NCBI GenBank assembly: GCA_016220035.1
Contig: JACRIO010000206.1
Location: 1-33,882 of the forward strand
Source: Planctomycetota bacterium
GTDB lineage: Bacteria; Planctomycetota; UBA1135; GCA-002686595
DNA length: 33,882 nt
Direction: 5' to 3'
This document shows, piece after piece, positions 1,370 to 33,882 of this stretch. The translations under genes were made by a program, and so were the position numbers. Position 1 is the stretch's first letter; every line of letters begins with the position of its first letter. The notes beneath the pieces were generated by a model. It worked only from the letters and a program-made list of their open reading frames with translations, made no database searches and was not told the origin of the DNA.

Positions 1370-2341
1370 TCAGACGAACGGTCCGCCCGCCCCCTCGCGC
1401 TCGGCCTCGAATCTCGTGGGCCGATCTTTCGGAGGGACGACGGGGGTGGTCTTGAGCCCATCCTGGAGATCCAGCCCGAGCGCCGGCCGCTTCAACGCGA
1501 ACGGAAGCTCCGACCGGGAAAACTTGGACGCGTCCGCGCTCGGGAACGGCGTCGCCGCGCTCCGCTGCGCGCGCACTGCTTCGAGCGCGGGCCCGAGCGC
1601 GCGCCGCGCGAGCGCGATCAGACGCGAGAGTCGGGTGAAGCCGGCCGTCGGCAGCCGACGCGCGAGCGTCACGGCGTCCGCGGTGGCGAGCTGATCCATC
1701 GAGCGCACGCCGGCCGACGCGAGCTCCGCCACGAAGGCCGCGTCGAGGCCGTCGAGGTCGTGGGCGTGCAGGGGTGCTCCGAGTTCCTCCGCTGGAACCA
1801 CGGCGAGCTCCTCCCCGCGCTCCTCCGGCCGCGAGCGCGCGAGGCGCGGTGCCGCCGCGGACTCCGGTTCCTGCTCCGGCGCTTCGGACGCCGTCTCCTC
1901 GACGTCGCGCTGCCGCCACGCATCGACGACGCGCTGGACGAGGCGTTTTTCGCGCGCGGGGAGCTCGACCGCAAGGCTCTCGCCGGGCTGGGCCGCGCTG
2001 TGCATCTCGCGCGCGTCGATCTCGGGGTTGAGCACGGAGTCCGCGATCTCGGCGCGCGCGCTCGGCAGCGGTGCACGCGGTTCCTCGTGGTCGAAGGCCG
2101 GGGGCGGCGCGCTCTCGCTCAGGGTTTCGCCCAGGGGTTCGCCGTGCAGGCGCTCGCGCAATCCGCGCGCCTCGCGCTGCAACCGCCGCGCGGACGCGGG
2201 CGTGCACGCGAGGATCTGGGCGGCGCGCTCGGCATCGAGCCGCTCCAGCGCCTCGAGTGTCGCGCACCCCGCCTGGCGCAGGCGCTTCAGCGTCGCCGGA
2301 CCATCCGCGTGCAACGTACACAGGAGAGCCATCGCATCCAT
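1370..2341 (-). CDS. Helix-hairpin-helix (DUF4332-like) repeat protein (323 aa)
   Basis: Two similar segments, about residues 5-65 and 194-249, each carry a pattern like 'L-x-x-AGC/GV-x-T-L-x-x-L...A-x-x-A-x-x-L': paired short helices around a Gly turn, as in helix-hairpin-helix and DUF4332-type domains. These usually bind DNA or act as protein interaction modules. The segments are separated by a roughly 130-residue Pro/Glu/Ala-rich linker. The start at 2341 has a GAGGTG ribosome-binding site 8 bases upstream; an in-frame ATG three codons later (2332) is possible. No signal peptide is seen, so it is probably cytoplasmic. It is first in a unit with the secreted protein at 109-1317. The family call is by pattern only. 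Confidence 0.6.
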   Translation of the reverse strand: MDAMALLCTLHADGPATLKRLRQAGCATLEALERLDAERAAQILACTPASARRLQREARGLRERLHGEPLGETLSESAPPPAFDHEEPRAPLPSARAEIADSVLNPEIDAREMHSAAQPGESLAVELPAREKRLVQRVVDAWRQRDVEETASEAPEQEPESAAAPRLARSRPEERGEELAVVPAEELGAPLHAHDLDGLDAAFVAELASAGVRSMDQLATADAVTLARRLPTAGFTRLSRLIALARRALGPALEAVRAQRSAATPFPSADASKFSRSELPFALKRPALGLDLQDGLKTTPVVPPKDRPTRFEAEREGAGGPFV

Positions 2342-2745
2342 GGGATCCGCACCTCGCGCCCACCCTCGGGCGGCACGCGTCGGTGTAGACAAAGGCGGGG
2401 CGGGAAACCAGAGCCGACCTCGTGACGTGCCCCCGCCGCGCTGCGGGATCTTCCCTGGTCGAGTCCAGCGTGACGGCATCCGCGAGCGCCCCGGGTTTCC
2501 GAGCGAGCGGCCGACCCCATGGGAACCGCCCGCTCGACAGGATGCGTCGATCCGCCGCACGCCTCGAAGCGCGCGCGGAGCACCCGTCGATCGTCGACCC
2601 ATTCGTGACGTCGATCGTCGCGGGCGGGCGGAAGCGCGCTGTCGAGCTGGGGTCGGCGGCCGGCGGCCGCGAGCCGCCGGGGCGCTTTGACACTGCACGA
2701 CACCGGTGAGAAGCTCCCGCGCAGAACCGCAACTGGCCGACGCCC
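2342..2745. other. Divergent intergenic region, 404 bases
   Basis: This region separates the divergent genes starting at 2341 (minus) and 2746 (plus), so it should hold both promoters. I see a TTGACA box at 2687-2692 for the plus side and a weak TACACC box on the minus strand (2382-2387), 41 bases before the minus start. A 7-bp inverted repeat (2661-2667 with 2673-2679) lies just upstream of the TTGACA box and could be an operator. Open frames here are Arg-rich shadows; I find no gene. Confidence 0.4.
2687..2715 (+). promoter_or_regulatory. Possible sigma70-type promoter of the hydrolase gene
   Basis: A perfect TTGACA box at 2687-2692 is followed after 17 bases by GAAGCT (2710-2715), which matches the -10 consensus only at positions 2 and 6. 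The start codon is 30 bases further on. The -35 box is good and the -10 box poor. Confidence 0.3.
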
Positions 2746-3759
2746 ATGACGATGCTCCTCACCCTCATCGCGACCCTCTCCCGCCCCGCACTCCAGGACA
2801 AGCCCGCCGCGCCGGCCCCGATCGTGACGACGGCGGAGCAGACGACGCTTTGGCCGCTCGCGAAGCTCGCGCGGCCCAAGTTCCCCGACCTGCCGGCTGC
2901 GACGCAGGTCGAGGGCGTCGCCTGTCACGCGGTCGAGCTCGCGTGGCCGCGCGGGGCGAGCAAGCTCTGGATCTACGTTCCCGCCGACGCCAAGCCCAAG
3001 GCCACGCCGTGCGTGCTCGTCGCGCCGGCGGGCAGCAACCTGATGTTCGGCATGACGCTCGGCGACGGCGACCGAGCCGAGCACCTGCCCTGGGCCAAAG
3101 CGGGCTTCGTCGTCGTTGCCTACGAGCTCGAAGGCGCCATGCCGGAGGAAGACCGGCAGACGGACGAGAACGTGTTCCGCCAACTCCACCGCTTCGCCGA
3201 CAGCTGGGCCGGAATCCAGGACGCGGAGGCGGCGCTGGAGTACGCGCTCGCCAAGCTGCCGATGGTCGATCCCGCGCGGGTTTTCGCCGCCGGCCACAGC
3301 TCCGCGGCGACGGCGACGATGCTATTCGCGCAGCACGAGCCGCGGCTGCGCGGAGCTTGCGCGTTCATGCCGATCGTCGACGTGCCCACGCGCATCCCCG
3401 ACGAGACCGAGGCCACGATCGAGGCGCAGATCCCCGGCTGGAGCGCCTTCCTCGCGCGGATCTCTCCCGACCGGCACGTGACCGACTTGCGCGTTCCCTT
3501 GTTCCTGTTCGGCGCCGAGGACGACGACAACGTGCGGTACGCCGACGTCGCTGCGTTCGCCGAGAAGGTGAGGGGCTCGAAGCGGGAGGTCGTCTTCGAG
3601 CACGCGGCCGAGGGCGGCCACTACCAGGCGATGATCGACGCCGGACTCCCGCGCGCGATCGCATGGGCGCAGGCGCTCCCGCCACGCGGAGCACCGGGCA
3701 AGCCGGCCGACGCGCAGGGCAAACCCGCGAAGCCAGCCAAGGAGAAGTCGAAGGGCTGA
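2746..3759 (+). CDS. Secreted alpha/beta hydrolase, dienelactone-hydrolase/peptidase-like (337 aa)
   Basis: An alpha/beta hydrolase fold is indicated by a beta-rich N-terminal half with LVAPAG (about 91-96), a nucleophile elbow GHSSA (Ser185), an acidic residue after the LFLFGAEDDD strand (Asp259-261) and a late GGHYQ His (His292). Together these form a complete Ser-Asp-His triad. The N-terminus is hydrophobic (MTMLLTLIATLS) and is probably a short export signal; ATG at 2752 is an alternative start. The last 25 residues are a Lys/Pro/Ala-rich tail. The substrate is unknown; family members hydrolyse esters, lactones or peptides. No ribosome-binding site is clear. It stands alone, divergent from the gene at 2341, and is followed by a small hairpin and the repeat element. 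Confidence 0.8.
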   Translation: MTMLLTLIATLSRPALQDKPAAPAPIVTTAEQTTLWPLAKLARPKFPDLPAATQVEGVACHAVELAWPRGASKLWIYVPADAKPKATPCVLVAPAGSNLMFGMTLGDGDRAEHLPWAKAGFVVVAYELEGAMPEEDRQTDENVFRQLHRFADSWAGIQDAEAALEYALAKLPMVDPARVFAAGHSSAATATMLFAQHEPRLRGACAFMPIVDVPTRIPDETEATIEAQIPGWSAFLARISPDRHVTDLRVPLFLFGAEDDDNVRYADVAAFAEKVRGSKREVVFEHAAEGGHYQAMIDAGLPRAIAWAQALPPRGAPGKPADAQGKPAKPAKEKSKG

Positions 3760-3771
3760 GCACGCGGGGAG

Positions 3772-3787
3772 CTTCTCCAGGGAGAAG
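3772..3787 (+). terminator. Small hairpin after the hydrolase gene
   Basis: The arms 3772-3778 and 3781-3787 are perfectly complementary (7 bp) with a 2-base loop, 12 bases after the stop at 3759. No T-tract follows. Confidence 0.3.
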
Positions 3788-3871
3788 ACCCTCGGGCAGA
3801 GGCCCCTCGACCGAGGCGGCCAGCGCACGGGTCAGGACGATCCATCGACGCGCACCGTCGGTGTCACGTCG

Positions 3872-4098
3872 GAATCCAGACCGCCTGACACAGCCCCAGC
3901 CGAGGAGCCGTTGGACCGGTGATCGGCGCTTGTTTCCCCGAGGGAATCGCTGGTCTGCGGTCGCCGTCCGTGGGCCTCGGGGTGCGCACCCAAACCTGTC
4001 CGCATTGCTTGCGCGCGCTGGCGAGGGCGGGGAGATGGCCGCCCAGGACCGCCGCACCGACCCGATCGCGCTCACGCCAAGCCTGGAGGTCTGGACTC
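3872..4098 (+). mobile_element. Small inverted-repeat element, MITE-like, copy 1
   Basis: The left end 3872-3890 (GAATCCAGACCGCCTGACA) is an inverted match to 4313-4331 (18 of 19 bases) and, more weakly, to 4080-4098 (14 of 19). Its closest relative is the sequence at 33695 onward. That copy matches the left end at 17 of 19 bases and shares a 25-base identical block, 3979-4003 with 33805-33829, containing the perfect 12-bp palindrome GGGTGCGCACCC. The element has no convincing open frame, so it would be non-autonomous. The right boundary is uncertain: 4098 gives a 227-bp unit, 4331 a 460-bp unit. No target-site duplication is obvious. It is not a named IS that I recognise. Confidence 0.5.
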
Positions 4099-4218
4099 CC
4101 GGACGATCGATGGGCGAACGCGCGCGGTCCGAGCGATCGGATTCCCCACTTCCGATCTCGGCGATGGTCGGCCGAGGGTTCCCGAATCAACATCGAGATC
4201 ATCCGCGGGTTCGTGCTC

Positions 4219-4331
4219 GTGCACTCGATCCTGTCCGCTCCCTCGGCGTGCCGAGGCAGGGGTGTAGGAGGTGGACGCGGAGTCGACCGAACCGGAGGCG
4301 GTCGCGCACCCCTGTCAGGCGATCTGGATTC
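4219..4331 (+). repeat. Degenerate right-hand half of the same element
   Basis: Bases 4219-4239 match the core of the 33805 copy at 17 of 21 positions and include CCTGTCCGCT. The distance from this core to the terminal motif TGTCAGGCGATCTGGATTC (4313-4331) is 83 bases. The corresponding distance in the first copy is 86 bases (3995 to about 4081). The left half of this copy is not recognisable, so it is either a truncated copy or the far end of a longer element starting at 3872. Confidence 0.4.
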
Positions 4332-4409
4332 AGCAGGGACGGATGGAGTCGATCCAGCAGCTTCGCGAGGGGCGTCCGATGGATTCGAGCCGCGATGGTG
4401 ATGCGCGTA

Positions 4410-5633
4410 TCACCCCCGCGCCCGCACCTTCACCGTCTCCCCCACGGTGTTCATCATCCGCCGCAGCTCGTCGTAGTCCGAGTGCTGCATGCGGATCCAC
4501 GCATTGGCCATGTATCCGCCGCCGACGGACTGCGTCGGCGTGCCGGGGGGCGGGAGGTAGTAATCGATGATCCACCGCCCGTACGCGTGCTGCACCTTGT
4601 CGAACCCGTCGTAGCCCGTGATGCGGCCGTCGCACTCCGGACGCAGCGCGATCATCCCGCCGGCGCGCGCGCGCGAGGGCTTCGACTCCGTGCGACCGTG
4701 CACGATCGCCTTCGCCCACTCCACGTACAGATCGAGGTCGTTCGCCGCGCCGTAGACGTCCCACACGCGCACTCCCGGAGGACGGCAACCGATCTCGCTG
4801 AACTTGAGGCCCTTCGGCCCGAAGAACCACTCCATGTGCGTCGCCGACGTCCCGATGCCGAGCGCTTGGATCACCTTCTGGCCCATCGCCTTAACCTCGG
4901 CGTAATCGGGTGCGTCCATCCGGTTCGTCAGCACGATCTGCGGCGAGATCCACCGTGTGCGCATCGCCTCGAGGACGTTCGGGTAGTAGTGGCAGATGAA
5001 GTCGTGCTGCACGCGGCCTTCGATCGAGAGCGTGTCGTAGAAGCCCTCGTGGCCCTCGATGAACTCCTCCACCGCGATCGGGGCGCCCTTGTCGACGCGC
5101 GTCGAGCGGAGCGCGGCCTCGAGCTCGACGTCGTTCGCCACCTTGCTCGTCCCCGACGCGCCCGCGCCGTCGCGCGGCTTCAGGATGAGCGGGTAGCCGA
5201 CCTTCTTCGCGAACGCGCGCACTTCGCTCGCGTCGCTCGTGCCGATCGACTGCGCGCACGGGACGCCCGCAGCGCGCAGCGCTTCCTTCATCGCGGGCTT
5301 GTCGCGACAGAGGAACGCCGTGCGCGTGCTCGTCCCGGGGATCGAGCAGCGCTCGCGCACGGTCGCGGCGGCCTGGATGTGCGCTTCGACGGTCGCTTCG
5401 AGCCGGTCGACCCACCCGCGCGCCTGGATGCGGCGCACGGCGTCGTGGAGCCCCTCCTCGTCGACGACGGAGCGCACCTGCTCGTACCCGGCCAGCCAGT
5501 CGCGCATCTCGGAGTCGAGCGCGCTCGCCGGCGCCTCGCCGATCGCCGTGACGCGCGCGCCGACGGCCTTCAACGCGCGCGGGAACTCGCGCTGGTTCCG
5601 GGGGAAATTGGGTTCGACGAAGATCACGTGCAT
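4410..5633 (-). CDS. ATP-grasp ligase, paralogue 1 (407 aa)
   Basis: A predicted ATP-dependent carboxylate-amine or carboxylate-thiol ligase. An N-terminal Rossmann-like pre-ATP-grasp domain (about 1-100) leads into the ATP-grasp core. The core shows RDKPAMK (110-116), the nucleotide-binding lysine in YPLILKP with a glycine loop (148-159), VEEFIEGHEG (188-197), and the metal-binding THMEWFF...EIGCRPPG (265-287). About 120 C-terminal residues follow. It belongs to the same subfamily as the proteins at 10396 and 11753. The substrate is unknown. ATG at 5633 is preceded by GGAG. It begins 95 bases after glycogen synthase on the same strand with no visible promoter between, so co-transcription with glgA is likely. 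It is probably cytoplasmic. Confidence 0.85.
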   Translation of the reverse strand: MHVIFVEPNFPRNQREFPRALKAVGARVTAIGEAPASALDSEMRDWLAGYEQVRSVVDEEGLHDAVRRIQARGWVDRLEATVEAHIQAAATVRERCSIPGTSTRTAFLCRDKPAMKEALRAAGVPCAQSIGTSDASEVRAFAKKVGYPLILKPRDGAGASGTSKVANDVELEAALRSTRVDKGAPIAVEEFIEGHEGFYDTLSIEGRVQHDFICHYYPNVLEAMRTRWISPQIVLTNRMDAPDYAEVKAMGQKVIQALGIGTSATHMEWFFGPKGLKFSEIGCRPPGVRVWDVYGAANDLDLYVEWAKAIVHGRTESKPSRARAGGMIALRPECDGRITGYDGFDKVQHAYGRWIIDYYLPPPGTPTQSVGGGYMANAWIRMQHSDYDELRRMMNTVGETVKVRARG

Positions 5634-5728
5634 GGGGGTCTCCGATTGCGGAGCGCGCGATCGCGCTCGCGGCTCGTCTTCGATGTGAGGGCTCGTTTGG
5701 AGGCTCGTTTCCGGTTCGGGGTCGTCGT

Positions 5729-7189
5729 TCAGCGGCCGAGGAGCCGCTCGTAGAGCGCCTCGTACTGCCGCACCTGCTTCTCCCACGAGAAGTCCTGCGC
5801 CATCCCGTTCTGCACGAGCCGGTTCCAAGCCTGCTCGTCGCGCCAGACGCCGAGCGCGCGCGCGATCGCGTCGAGCAGCGCCTCGCCCTTGAACTCGTCG
5901 AACAGGAAGCCCGTGCCCGCGCCGGTGCGGCCGTTCCACTCCTGCACGGTGTCGGCGAGGCCGCCGGTGCGCCGCACGATCGGCACGGTGCCGTAGCGCA
6001 GCGAGTACATCTGGTTCAAGCCGCACGGCTCGTAGCGCGACGGCATGAGGAAGAGATCCGCGCCGGCCTCGATCGAGTGCGAGAGCGCCTCGTCGTAGCC
6101 CGTCGCGTACGCGACCTTGTCGGGGAAGCTCCGCTGGAGGCTCGTGAAGAAGTTCTGGTAGCGCTCCTCGCCGCTGCCGAGCACGACGAGCCGCACATCC
6201 TGCCGGTGGAGCACGACGGGCAGCGCCTCGGCCGCGAGCTCGAAGCCCTTCTGCGCCGTGAGCCGCGACACGATGCCGAACACGGGCGCGTCGGGTCCCG
6301 CGGCGAGGCCGTACTTGGCGAGCAGCGCAGCGCGGCACGCGCGCTTCCCCTTCAAGTCCTTCGGCGAGTAGCGCGCGGGGATGAGCTCGTCGTGGCGCGG
6401 ATCCCACACGTCGTAGTCGACGCCGTTCACGATGCCGACCAACGCGTCGCGCCGCGCGCGCAGGAGTCCTTCGAGGCCCATGCCGAGCTCCGGCGTCTGG
6501 ATCTCCTCCGCGTACGTCGCGCTGACCGTCGTCACCGCGGTCGCGTAGAGCAGGCCCGTCTCGAGGAAGCCGATTTTGCCCTCGCGCAGGTGTTCTTGAT
6601 GGAGGAGGTTCGCGAAGTGCTCGAAGCCGAGGTCGTGGAGCTTGTCCGCGCCGACGATCCCCTGGTAGCCGATGTTGTGGAGCGTGAGCACCGTCTTCGT
6701 CGACTGGAACATCCGGTCCCAGCCGTACACCGTGCGCAGGTAGAGCGGGATCAGGCTCGCGTGCCAGTCGTTCACGTGGAACACGTCGGGCGCCCACTTC
6801 GACCACTGGCAGAGCTCGATCGCCGCGCGGTTCAGGAGCACGAAGCGCAGGTGCTCGTCCTGGTCCTGCGTGTAGATCCCCTCGCGGTCGTAGAGCTCGG
6901 GACAGCGCACGAACCACACGCGCGTCTTCGAATCGGGGAGCTCCGTGGTCGACACGCTGAACCACGTGCGCTTCGAACCGAGCGTGATCGGGACGTCCTG
7001 CAGGCCGGGGACGGGCTCGAGCTTCCACTTCCCCTGTTGAACACGTTGATAGAGCGGCATGACGAGCCGCACGTCGTGCCCCTTCTTGCCGAGGTGTCGC
7101 GCGAGCGCCGCGGCGACGTCCGCGAGGCCGCCGGTCTTGGCGAAGGGCGCGGCTTCGGACGAGACGATGCAGACCTTGAGTGCGCTCAT
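5729..7189 (-). CDS. glgA: Glycogen synthase, ADP-glucose-dependent (486 aa)
   Basis: A GT5-family enzyme that transfers glucose from ADP-glucose to the growing alpha-1,4-glucan chain. The N-terminal KTGGL motif (18-22) is the ADP-glucose-binding signature, HVNDWHAS lies near residue 160, and the C-terminal GT-B domain carries GIVSRL, PSRYEPCGLNQMYSLRYG and RRTGGLADTV, including the catalytic Glu region. Its length matches normal GlgA (about 470-500 aa). The start MSALKVCIVSSEAAPF is the family's usual N-terminus; GGAG lies upstream. It leads a likely unit with the ATP-grasp gene at 4410. Its substrate supplier, glgC, lies about 20 kb away at 25949-27232. No branching enzyme is present in the window. 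Confidence 0.95.
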   Translation of the reverse strand: MSALKVCIVSSEAAPFAKTGGLADVAAALARHLGKKGHDVRLVMPLYQRVQQGKWKLEPVPGLQDVPITLGSKRTWFSVSTTELPDSKTRVWFVRCPELYDREGIYTQDQDEHLRFVLLNRAAIELCQWSKWAPDVFHVNDWHASLIPLYLRTVYGWDRMFQSTKTVLTLHNIGYQGIVGADKLHDLGFEHFANLLHQEHLREGKIGFLETGLLYATAVTTVSATYAEEIQTPELGMGLEGLLRARRDALVGIVNGVDYDVWDPRHDELIPARYSPKDLKGKRACRAALLAKYGLAAGPDAPVFGIVSRLTAQKGFELAAEALPVVLHRQDVRLVVLGSGEERYQNFFTSLQRSFPDKVAYATGYDEALSHSIEAGADLFLMPSRYEPCGLNQMYSLRYGTVPIVRRTGGLADTVQEWNGRTGAGTGFLFDEFKGEALLDAIARALGVWRDEQAWNRLVQNGMAQDFSWEKQVRQYEALYERLLGR

Positions 7190-32851: not shown

Positions 32852-33844
32852 CTACGGTTCCCAGAGAACGGCAACGGCCTGCGAGGAGTTCGCCGTCCCG
32901 CCCGCCGGGCAGAACGTCGGGTCCGCATCGCGGTAGTACGCCTGGTAGTGCCGCGTGGCACCGATCGGGATCGGATCGCCAACGATCGCGGAACGCGCGG
33001 AGATGGACGGCTCCCCCGCCTCGGGAAAGAGCGCGAACCCGCCCGCGGCGGTGCGCGCTTGGATGCGCCTGAGGAACCCGCCGACGCAGCGCAGCCCATC
33101 GCCGAACGGCGCGACCAACTCGGCCTCCGTCCCCTGGAACAGGATCACGAGCGTCGCGGGGCTCCCGCCGGAGAACGAGAACGAGAGCGAATCCGCCGAG
33201 AGGTTGGCTGCTCCGGTCGCGATGAGTTGACCACCACCGGTCCCGCGCGAGTTCTGACACCCACGACCCGGGCTCCCCGCGTTGCCGCAAGGACACGCAC
33301 CGCTCGAGCCGTCGCCGAAGCAATAGGAGTGCGGCGGAGTCGGGCCACGGTCGCGAAGGAACACGTCCTGGGCCGAGTTGGTGTCGCCGGGGACGACGGT
33401 GTTGTCCGAGGCTGCAAACGTGACCCATCGCCCGTCCGCAGAAATGGCCGGGAGGATGCCACCGTTGAAAAGTTCCTGCCCCGGTATCACCTCACTCACC
33501 TTCTGGGTGACGCGCGTGACCAGATCGTGTGTGAAGACGTCCCAGTAGAAGCCTGTGTCCCCCGGAACGAGCGATGTGGCCGCACTGAGAAAAGCGACGA
33601 CACGGCCGTCATAGGATATCGGCGAGGAGGTGTATCCGATGCAGCAGTCAGCCCCGCTCCCGCTGTTGCCCTGGAGCCCCGTCGACGAGACGCTGACTCC
33701 AGACCTCCTGACATAGGTCCCGGTTGACGGTGCGGTTGGATCGGCGATCGGAGCTTGTTTTCCCGAGGGAACTGGTGTTCCGTCGTCGCGGACACATCCC
33801 CCCTGGGGTGCGCACCCAAACCTGTCCGCTTTTTCGGCGCGCAC
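32852..33844 (-). CDS. 5'-truncated PD40-repeat protein with C-terminal Cys-rich module (up to 330 aa)
   Basis: From residue 50 the protein has two beta-propeller-like (PD40/TolB-type) units: SVSSTGLQGN ... SSPISYDGRVVAFLSAATSLVPGDTGFYWDVFTHD and PAISADGRWVTFAASDNTVVPGDTNSAQDVFLRDRG. From residue 174 the Cys-rich module follows (YCFGDGSSGACPCGNAGSPGRGC, FGDGLRCVGG, YYRDADPTFCPAGG). Full-length relatives normally have a signal peptide and more repeats. Here residues 1-49 are encoded by the repeat element that begins at 33695, with a weak GTG start at 33844 and no signal peptide. I read this as a gene disrupted by insertion; the original 5' part may lie beyond the window. It is probably non-functional unless a promoter within the element drives it. 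Confidence 0.6.
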   Translation of the reverse strand: MRAEKADRFGCAPQGGCVRDDGTPVPSGKQAPIADPTAPSTGTYVRRSGVSVSSTGLQGNSGSGADCCIGYTSSPISYDGRVVAFLSAATSLVPGDTGFYWDVFTHDLVTRVTQKVSEVIPGQELFNGGILPAISADGRWVTFAASDNTVVPGDTNSAQDVFLRDRGPTPPHSYCFGDGSSGACPCGNAGSPGRGCQNSRGTGGGQLIATGAANLSADSLSFSFSGGSPATLVILFQGTEAELVAPFGDGLRCVGGFLRRIQARTAAGGFALFPEAGEPSISARSAIVGDPIPIGATRHYQAYYRDADPTFCPAGGTANSSQAVAVLWEP

Positions 33845-33882
33845 GGGCCAGGGTAGGGGGATGCCCCCGCCGTCCCAGCAAG
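33695..33882 (+). mobile_element. Small inverted-repeat element, copy 3, cut by the window end
   Basis: The left end 33695-33713 matches 3872-3890 at 17 of 19 bases. The internal sequence follows the 3872 copy, with a 25-base identical block at 33805-33829 (containing the palindrome GGGTGCGCACCC at 33806-33817) and conserved stretches such as GCTTGTTT and CCGAGGGAA around 33754-33772. The right end is outside the window. It interrupts the PD40 gene whose reading frame enters it at about 33697. Confidence 0.5.

Follow-up and report, generated by a model that had tools for sequence, protein, structure and literature searches.

The segment 3872-4331 of the window (the whole 33,882-nucleotide stretch of Planctomycetota DNA analyzed here) is very probably a head-to-tail pair of non-autonomous mini-elements that arose through internal deletion of a Planctomycetota insertion sequence (IS), one which codes for a transposase of the Pfam family PF21804, makes 5-bp duplications and targets GANTC, and which could mobilize such derivatives in trans. 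The ends of the elements, the 5-bp duplication, the GANTC preference, the identity of the parent and the two-unit structure are read directly from the DNA, and the parental IS is itself present in the genome, split between the end of the window's contig and another contig.

Architecture of the composite

The composite consists of two units, each bounded by GANTC words, with the following parts:

3872-3876, no strand: target word GAATC, left flank of unit 1 (from the sequence; GANTC occurs at 27 of 60 independent end matches in the phylum)
3877-4093, plus strand: mini-element unit 1, 217 bp, the IS left end through the core and start-codon region, joined to the IS right end (from alignments to the left end of the IS at 33700, the copy on contig C281 and the right end on contig C11)
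3979-4003, plus strand: 25-base core of unit 1, GGGGTGCGCACCCAAACCTGTCCGC, a subterminal motif (identical at 33805-33829 and on C281; conserved in relatives)
4035-4037, plus strand: remnant of the start codon of the transposase, lying 38 bases after TGTCCG (the full IS has this spacing at 33861)
4094-4098, no strand: GACTC separating units 1 and 2 (from the sequence)
4099-4326, plus strand: mini-element unit 2, 228 bp, diverged, with an unrecognizable left terminal repeat and a clear right end (from alignment and a shuffle test via the copy on contig C46, z 23; the right end resembles the IS right end on C11)
4327-4331, no strand: GATTC, right flank of unit 2 (from the sequence)

A first-pass annotation of this DNA had proposed 19-bp inverted ends, and the arm at 3872-3890 (GAATCCAGACCGCCTGACA) is indeed identical at 18 of 19 positions to the reverse complement of 4313-4331 (GAATCCAGATCGCCTGACA). 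This is the only such pair in the window at a spacing of 150-600 bp, as against a mean of 0.1 expected from first-order Markov simulations. While these inverted repeats are real, the first five bases of each arm are the target word GANTC, and the true ends lie at 3877, 4093 and 4326. The inner motif at 4080-4098, put forward as an alternative end, is a genuine right end with its boundary at 4093, and the suspected nested or tandem copies resolve into two units arranged head to tail and separated by a single GANTC word.

Unit 1 retains about 160 bp of the IS left end, running through the core and the start codon, after which the right half of this unit, like that of unit 2, is alignable with the IS right end on C11. 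Both unit 1 and the C46 copy can be aligned with unit 2. A direct comparison of the two units is not significant in shuffle tests (z 1.4), but the C46 copy matches unit 1 (z 11), unit 2 (z 23) and the IS left end (z 14); the homology of the two units rests on this intermediate. Divergence of the units from the resident IS amounts to about 26%. The flanks of the units (GAATC, GACTC and GATTC) keep the GANTC pattern and differ at N, so that no literal target duplication is seen at this locus. No Pfam family, transposase or other, matches the single scanned reading frame of the middle part, the other frames having been assessed by inspection only. The possibility of a captured gene in the middle (4140-4240) was rejected, as the weak matches in genomes G005, G034 and G048 share nothing upon translation and Pfam finds nothing there. 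The units in the window have decayed and can probably no longer move.

Copies across the genome

The genome searched comprises 4.78 Mb in 341 contigs and is 84% complete, with C145 being the contig of the window. A nucleotide search with 3850-4345 reaches five places in it. The 25-base core had been reported as identical at 3979-4003 and 33805-33829, which we confirm; a 21-base part of it has no chance matches expected in the window, and a 24-base version occurs three times in the genome (twice on C145 and once on C281), each time as an exact match, in a search permitting 3 mismatches. A profile built from the units recovers all five training units along with the IS right end on C11, which was not in the training set (weak, E 0.025); it detects the diverged further unit on C46 and points to no further convincing place in the whole genome. 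The tally thus stands at four mini-units at three loci (the window pair, C281 and C46), one IS and two fragments. The further copies for which the first-pass annotation suggested a whole-genome search are those on C281 and, in diverged form, C46.

The C281 copy carries the same pair of units in a right-truncated form, begins right at a stop codon, and its similarity to the window starts essentially at the left end proposed earlier. As this same pair occupies another GANTC site, it is old and was probably copied together at least once. This raises the possibility, to which we give somewhat less than an even chance, that the whole composite of 450 bp (3877-4326) is a mobile unit in its own right, moving by its outermost ends, with the inner end at 4093 being a relic of the joining of the units. 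In its support, C281 shares unit 1 and most of unit 2 (to 4251) in the midst of different upstream DNA and next to a different flank word, GAGTC versus the GAATC of the window, as if the pair had been copied together. However, the C281 copy is without the outer right end, and C46 bears a single unit of the unit-2 type. A 450-bp mobile unit is compatible with the two-unit explanation, and both can be true at different times.

Two further observations concern repeats in this DNA. An 87-bp piece of unit 2, 94% identical, stands alone at C266:2360-2445 (L003), where it adjoins a local pair of another intergenic repeat starting at CCGAATCAAG. Separately, the 18-mer ACGCACATGGAGTGGTTC is found four times, on either strand, in the sampled DNA, at positions 4824, 11200 and 12539 of the window and at L026:17804.

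The parental insertion sequence

The core copy at 33805 had been taken for a second copy of a miniature inverted-repeat transposable element (MITE). Instead, it belongs to the left end of a full, transposase-carrying IS that is cut by the contig end:

33695-33699, no strand: GACTC, which reads GAGTC on the gene strand and together with C11:14251-14255 makes up the 5-bp target duplication of the full IS (flank joining restores an open frame)
33700-33882, plus strand: left end of the full IS, interrupted where the contig stops; its right end is at C11:14256 on the other contig (from the sequence, end-pattern search and flank joining)
33805-33829, plus strand: 25-base core of the full IS (identical to 3979-4003)
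33861-33882, plus strand: first transposase codons (MPPPSQQ), cut by the contig end (the start resembles the MPAPAAQGELF of the relative L040; 38 bases from TGTCCG)

The repeat at 33700 carries CAGACCTCCTGACATAG, which is followed by the core, an ATG 38 bases after the start of TGTCCG with codons for PPPSQQ, and then the contig end. Searching with the terminal-repeat pattern reveals a single additional end, which starts at C11:14256 and has the opposite orientation; it is followed by an open frame of 467 codons on the minus strand, cut off where the contig stops. The 467-aa product matches Pfam Transposase_29 (PF21804) with an E-value of 7.6e-65 and 219.6 bits against a cut-off of 27; the anticipated parent transposase with the same ends is thereby found. 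Both C11 and C145 enter the IS from a TolB-like repeat gene (named by its repeat pattern, the C145 part being without a Pfam match), and joining C11 up to 14255 to the reverse strand of C145 below 33695 yields a stop-free frame across the junction (VHDRVLQTTVRVSVSSTGLQGNS). The joined site keeps one GAGTC, and GAGTC flanks the IS on each side. This IS hence shows matched inverted ends and a 5-bp direct duplication, as do its relatives.

Three contigs terminate within the IS, namely C11, C145 and C135 (the last with a truncated piece of the transposase), as would be expected of a repeated element when an assembly is fragmented. The assembly yielded no match to the missing N-terminal part of the resident transposase, and a sequence comparison with solved structures returned no match to the transposase. 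Close to the end of C135 (L038), 59 aa of the transposase are fused in an open frame with an apparent lipoprotein gene, and C135 breaks off at the same codon as C11, which marks an assembly break at the repeat.

The composite lies between convergent genes (a hydrolase at 2746-3759 and an ATP-grasp gene ending at 4410) and contains hairpin-forming stretches; together with the start of the C281 copy at a stop codon, these features speak for an intergenic repeat with a regulatory or structural role (REP-, terminator- or riboregulator-like) and without a transposon origin. We consider this reading very unlikely, as both halves of the composite are ends of a transposase-carrying IS, no Rfam family matches the core or leader, and the fold z-scores of 11 left ends spread between +1.2 and -2.9 without any consistent structure. 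On the latter two grounds, an RNA-structure reading of the core and leader was likewise rejected.

Relatives in Planctomycetota and the target preference

The transposase occurs in 17 of 392 genomes across the phylum. Among the nearest set of 121 genomes, only the window's own has one, and nucleotide matches in 60 of them amount to three weak ones of 28-49 bases; vertical inheritance was accordingly set aside. Phage or plasmid carriage was rejected too: neither the core nor the transposase has a match in IMG/VR, no plasmid matches the left end, and for the protein there is just a 25%-identical match on a Streptomyces plasmid. Four relatives, L039 (68% identity), L040 (60%), L042 and L047, share this left end and carry the core before an ATG. 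The L040 element is intact, spanning 2659 bp with GAGTC on both sides and coding for a 758-codon transposase with weak N-terminal helix-turn-helix (HTH) matches and the PF21804 domain (2.1e-81). Both it and the resident transposase match PF21804 along nearly the whole model, with a weak DDE_Tnp_1 match in the expected place. A relative of the IS in G303, at C253 ~1773-5997 (L042, L055), has GAATC on both sides and ~1.6 kb inserted inside its transposase gene. The phylum is taken to be Planctomycetota from the sequence that G320 shares with the deposited "Candidatus Brocadiia bacterium MAG_16", which has a contig that likewise ends at the core.

The end sequence CAGANCTCCTGACNT, with its first base limited to A, G or T, was searched in the 392 genomes without requiring GANTC. 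GANTC precedes 27 of the 60 matches, in 12 genomes, where ~0.3 would be expected after accounting for the limit on the first base (the p-value of 1.7e-45 is nominal, the ends of one element being non-independent). Nearly every end in this clade being preceded by GANTC, the word could conceivably be part of the terminal repeat rather than the target, but this appears extremely improbable: its N is nearly even across insertions (T8, A8, G6 and C5), yet around each of the three paired elements it agrees as a direct repeat; the empty site obtained by joining the flanks retains one GAGTC in frame; and two 99.7%-identical 2.38-kb copies in the single-contig genome G206 (L046, L057) show 5-bp direct duplications of other words, AATTT and AGATT.

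We therefore take GANTC to be the target. Among the remaining end matches, nine from G407 and one from G214 all follow ANNTT. This points to a sister group, belonging to another family of the phylum, that has the same end sequence and an ANNTT-type target. Exceptions to GANTC in transposase-bearing genomes come mostly from the more distant G277 and G282 (45-47% identity), and the protein of the G206 element is 32% identical to the transposase of the window IS. Since the G206 copies also duplicate 5 bp, the 5-bp duplication looks general for the family, and GANTC special to the clade of the window's IS.

The core motif

The core had been described as conserved and palindromic. It is conserved, but GGGTGCGCACCC is a perfect palindrome only in the window's genome and one Brocadiia bin, the other relatives having GGGTGCG(A/G)ACCC at this position, and the core is best viewed as a subterminal motif whose conserved part is GCGNACCCAAACCTGTCCG(C/G)TTT. 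The distance from the left end to its TGTCCG is 73-177 bp, and in most elements with both TGTCCG and the start codon readable, the latter follows 35-38 bp further on; the leader of L040 contains two copies. Most relatives also have a shortened version, TGTCCG(C/G)TT, which faces inward ~20 bp inside the right end. The core occurs in 8 of the 392 genomes, each time with a GANTC-flanked left end upstream, and five of these eight also have the transposase (Fisher p 4e-6).

In three of the four relatives, the core recurs in frame inside the transposase gene, with two copies each in L039 and L047 and one in L042. These coding copies, which read NPNLSAF, DPNLSAF or NPNLSG, sit between the HTH and the DDE domain. 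The copies inside one element match at two variable positions (GCG-N-AC and CCG-C/G) though one is non-coding and the others are coding: GCGA is seen in L039 and L042, GCGG in L047, and CCGG in L042 only. The leader copy has no consistent frame, and hence would act as DNA or RNA rather than as protein. The agreement within elements favors a site recognized by a co-evolving protein, most simply the transposase, with a recent duplication inside the element being the alternative. The core is most likely a promoter or operator as well as a transposase-binding site, the former role being suggested by its location before the start codon.

GANTC is the site methylated by CcrM-type enzymes in other bacteria. 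A more elaborate proposal is that the transposase reads the core as a control site at the DNA level and that this site has been copied into the transposase gene in frame, such that the element would sense its transposase at two or three places, and that the GANTC preference would tie insertion to CcrM-type methylation sites; we regard this combination as unlikely.

Origin of the mini-elements and known systems

The parent would be an IS with CAGANCTCCTGACATAG-type inverted repeats at its ends and a transposase of the Transposase_29 family combining an HTH with a DDE-type domain. Internal deletion would have left mini-elements with both IS ends and the subterminal core, while removing the transposase gene; therefore, we infer that any mobilization would be in trans, by the transposase of the IS. 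As each inserted element has GANTC flanks, the unit-GANTC-unit layout could have formed when a second insertion targeted the GANTC flanking an earlier copy. Given the low copy number (four units) and the ~26% divergence, the actual source of the window units may be a somewhat different IS than the resident one.

The earlier label of a MITE-like element holds insofar as these are non-autonomous derivatives of an IS with an identified parent; its boundaries have been revised and the copy at 33805 is a full IS. The units have terminal inverted repeats in common with the transposase-carrying IS (33700, C11:14256), are short, lack a transposase of their own in the one middle-part frame scanned, and are present in several dispersed copies, though four units at three loci is low for a MITE. 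The reading of the composite as decayed, low-copy, tandem MITE-type derivatives of a PF21804 IS is sound, and elements of this kind are already known. The 107-bp RUP of Streptococcus pneumoniae (108 copies, TA targets, partner IS630-Spn1) is likewise a short non-autonomous repeat that shares its ends with a resident IS and has a proposed mobilization in trans and a short target word (PMC2229807); it differs in being high-copy and targeting TA, as opposed to four units, a 5-bp GANTC target and a PF21804 transposase. The CIR repeats of Caulobacter, for which no mobility mechanism is known, are similarly intergenic, ~100-200 bp long and associated with GANTC (PMC2229807), but there the word is internal to the repeat, whereas in the window element it is the flanking target.

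The resident transposase and that of L040 belong to the same family, PF21804, which is a model of the protein alone; the ends, GANTC target, mini-elements and core motif are read here from sequence. IS1634, IS1380, IS4 and IS5, relatives of DDE_Tnp_1, show weak profile similarity in the DDE domain. None of the NCBIfam IS-family models matches this transposase: those for IS1634, IS1380, IS4, IS5, IS481 and IS630 give 12.8-18.8 bits against equivalog cut-offs of 100-224, and by score the IS belongs to none of them. In the literature searched, this IS was not found, and PF21804 is mentioned neither by accession nor, in the sense of a transposase, by name.

The split IS explains where the contigs of such metagenome bins break. 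More generally, these observations supply the ends, a 5-bp GANTC target rule and internal signals for a transposase family that is otherwise only a Pfam entry in the resources searched, and show that the PF21804 family leaves mini-elements behind. A target of 5 bp that is palindromic around a free central base gives a bacterial DDE-type element a clean specificity that can be tested directly.
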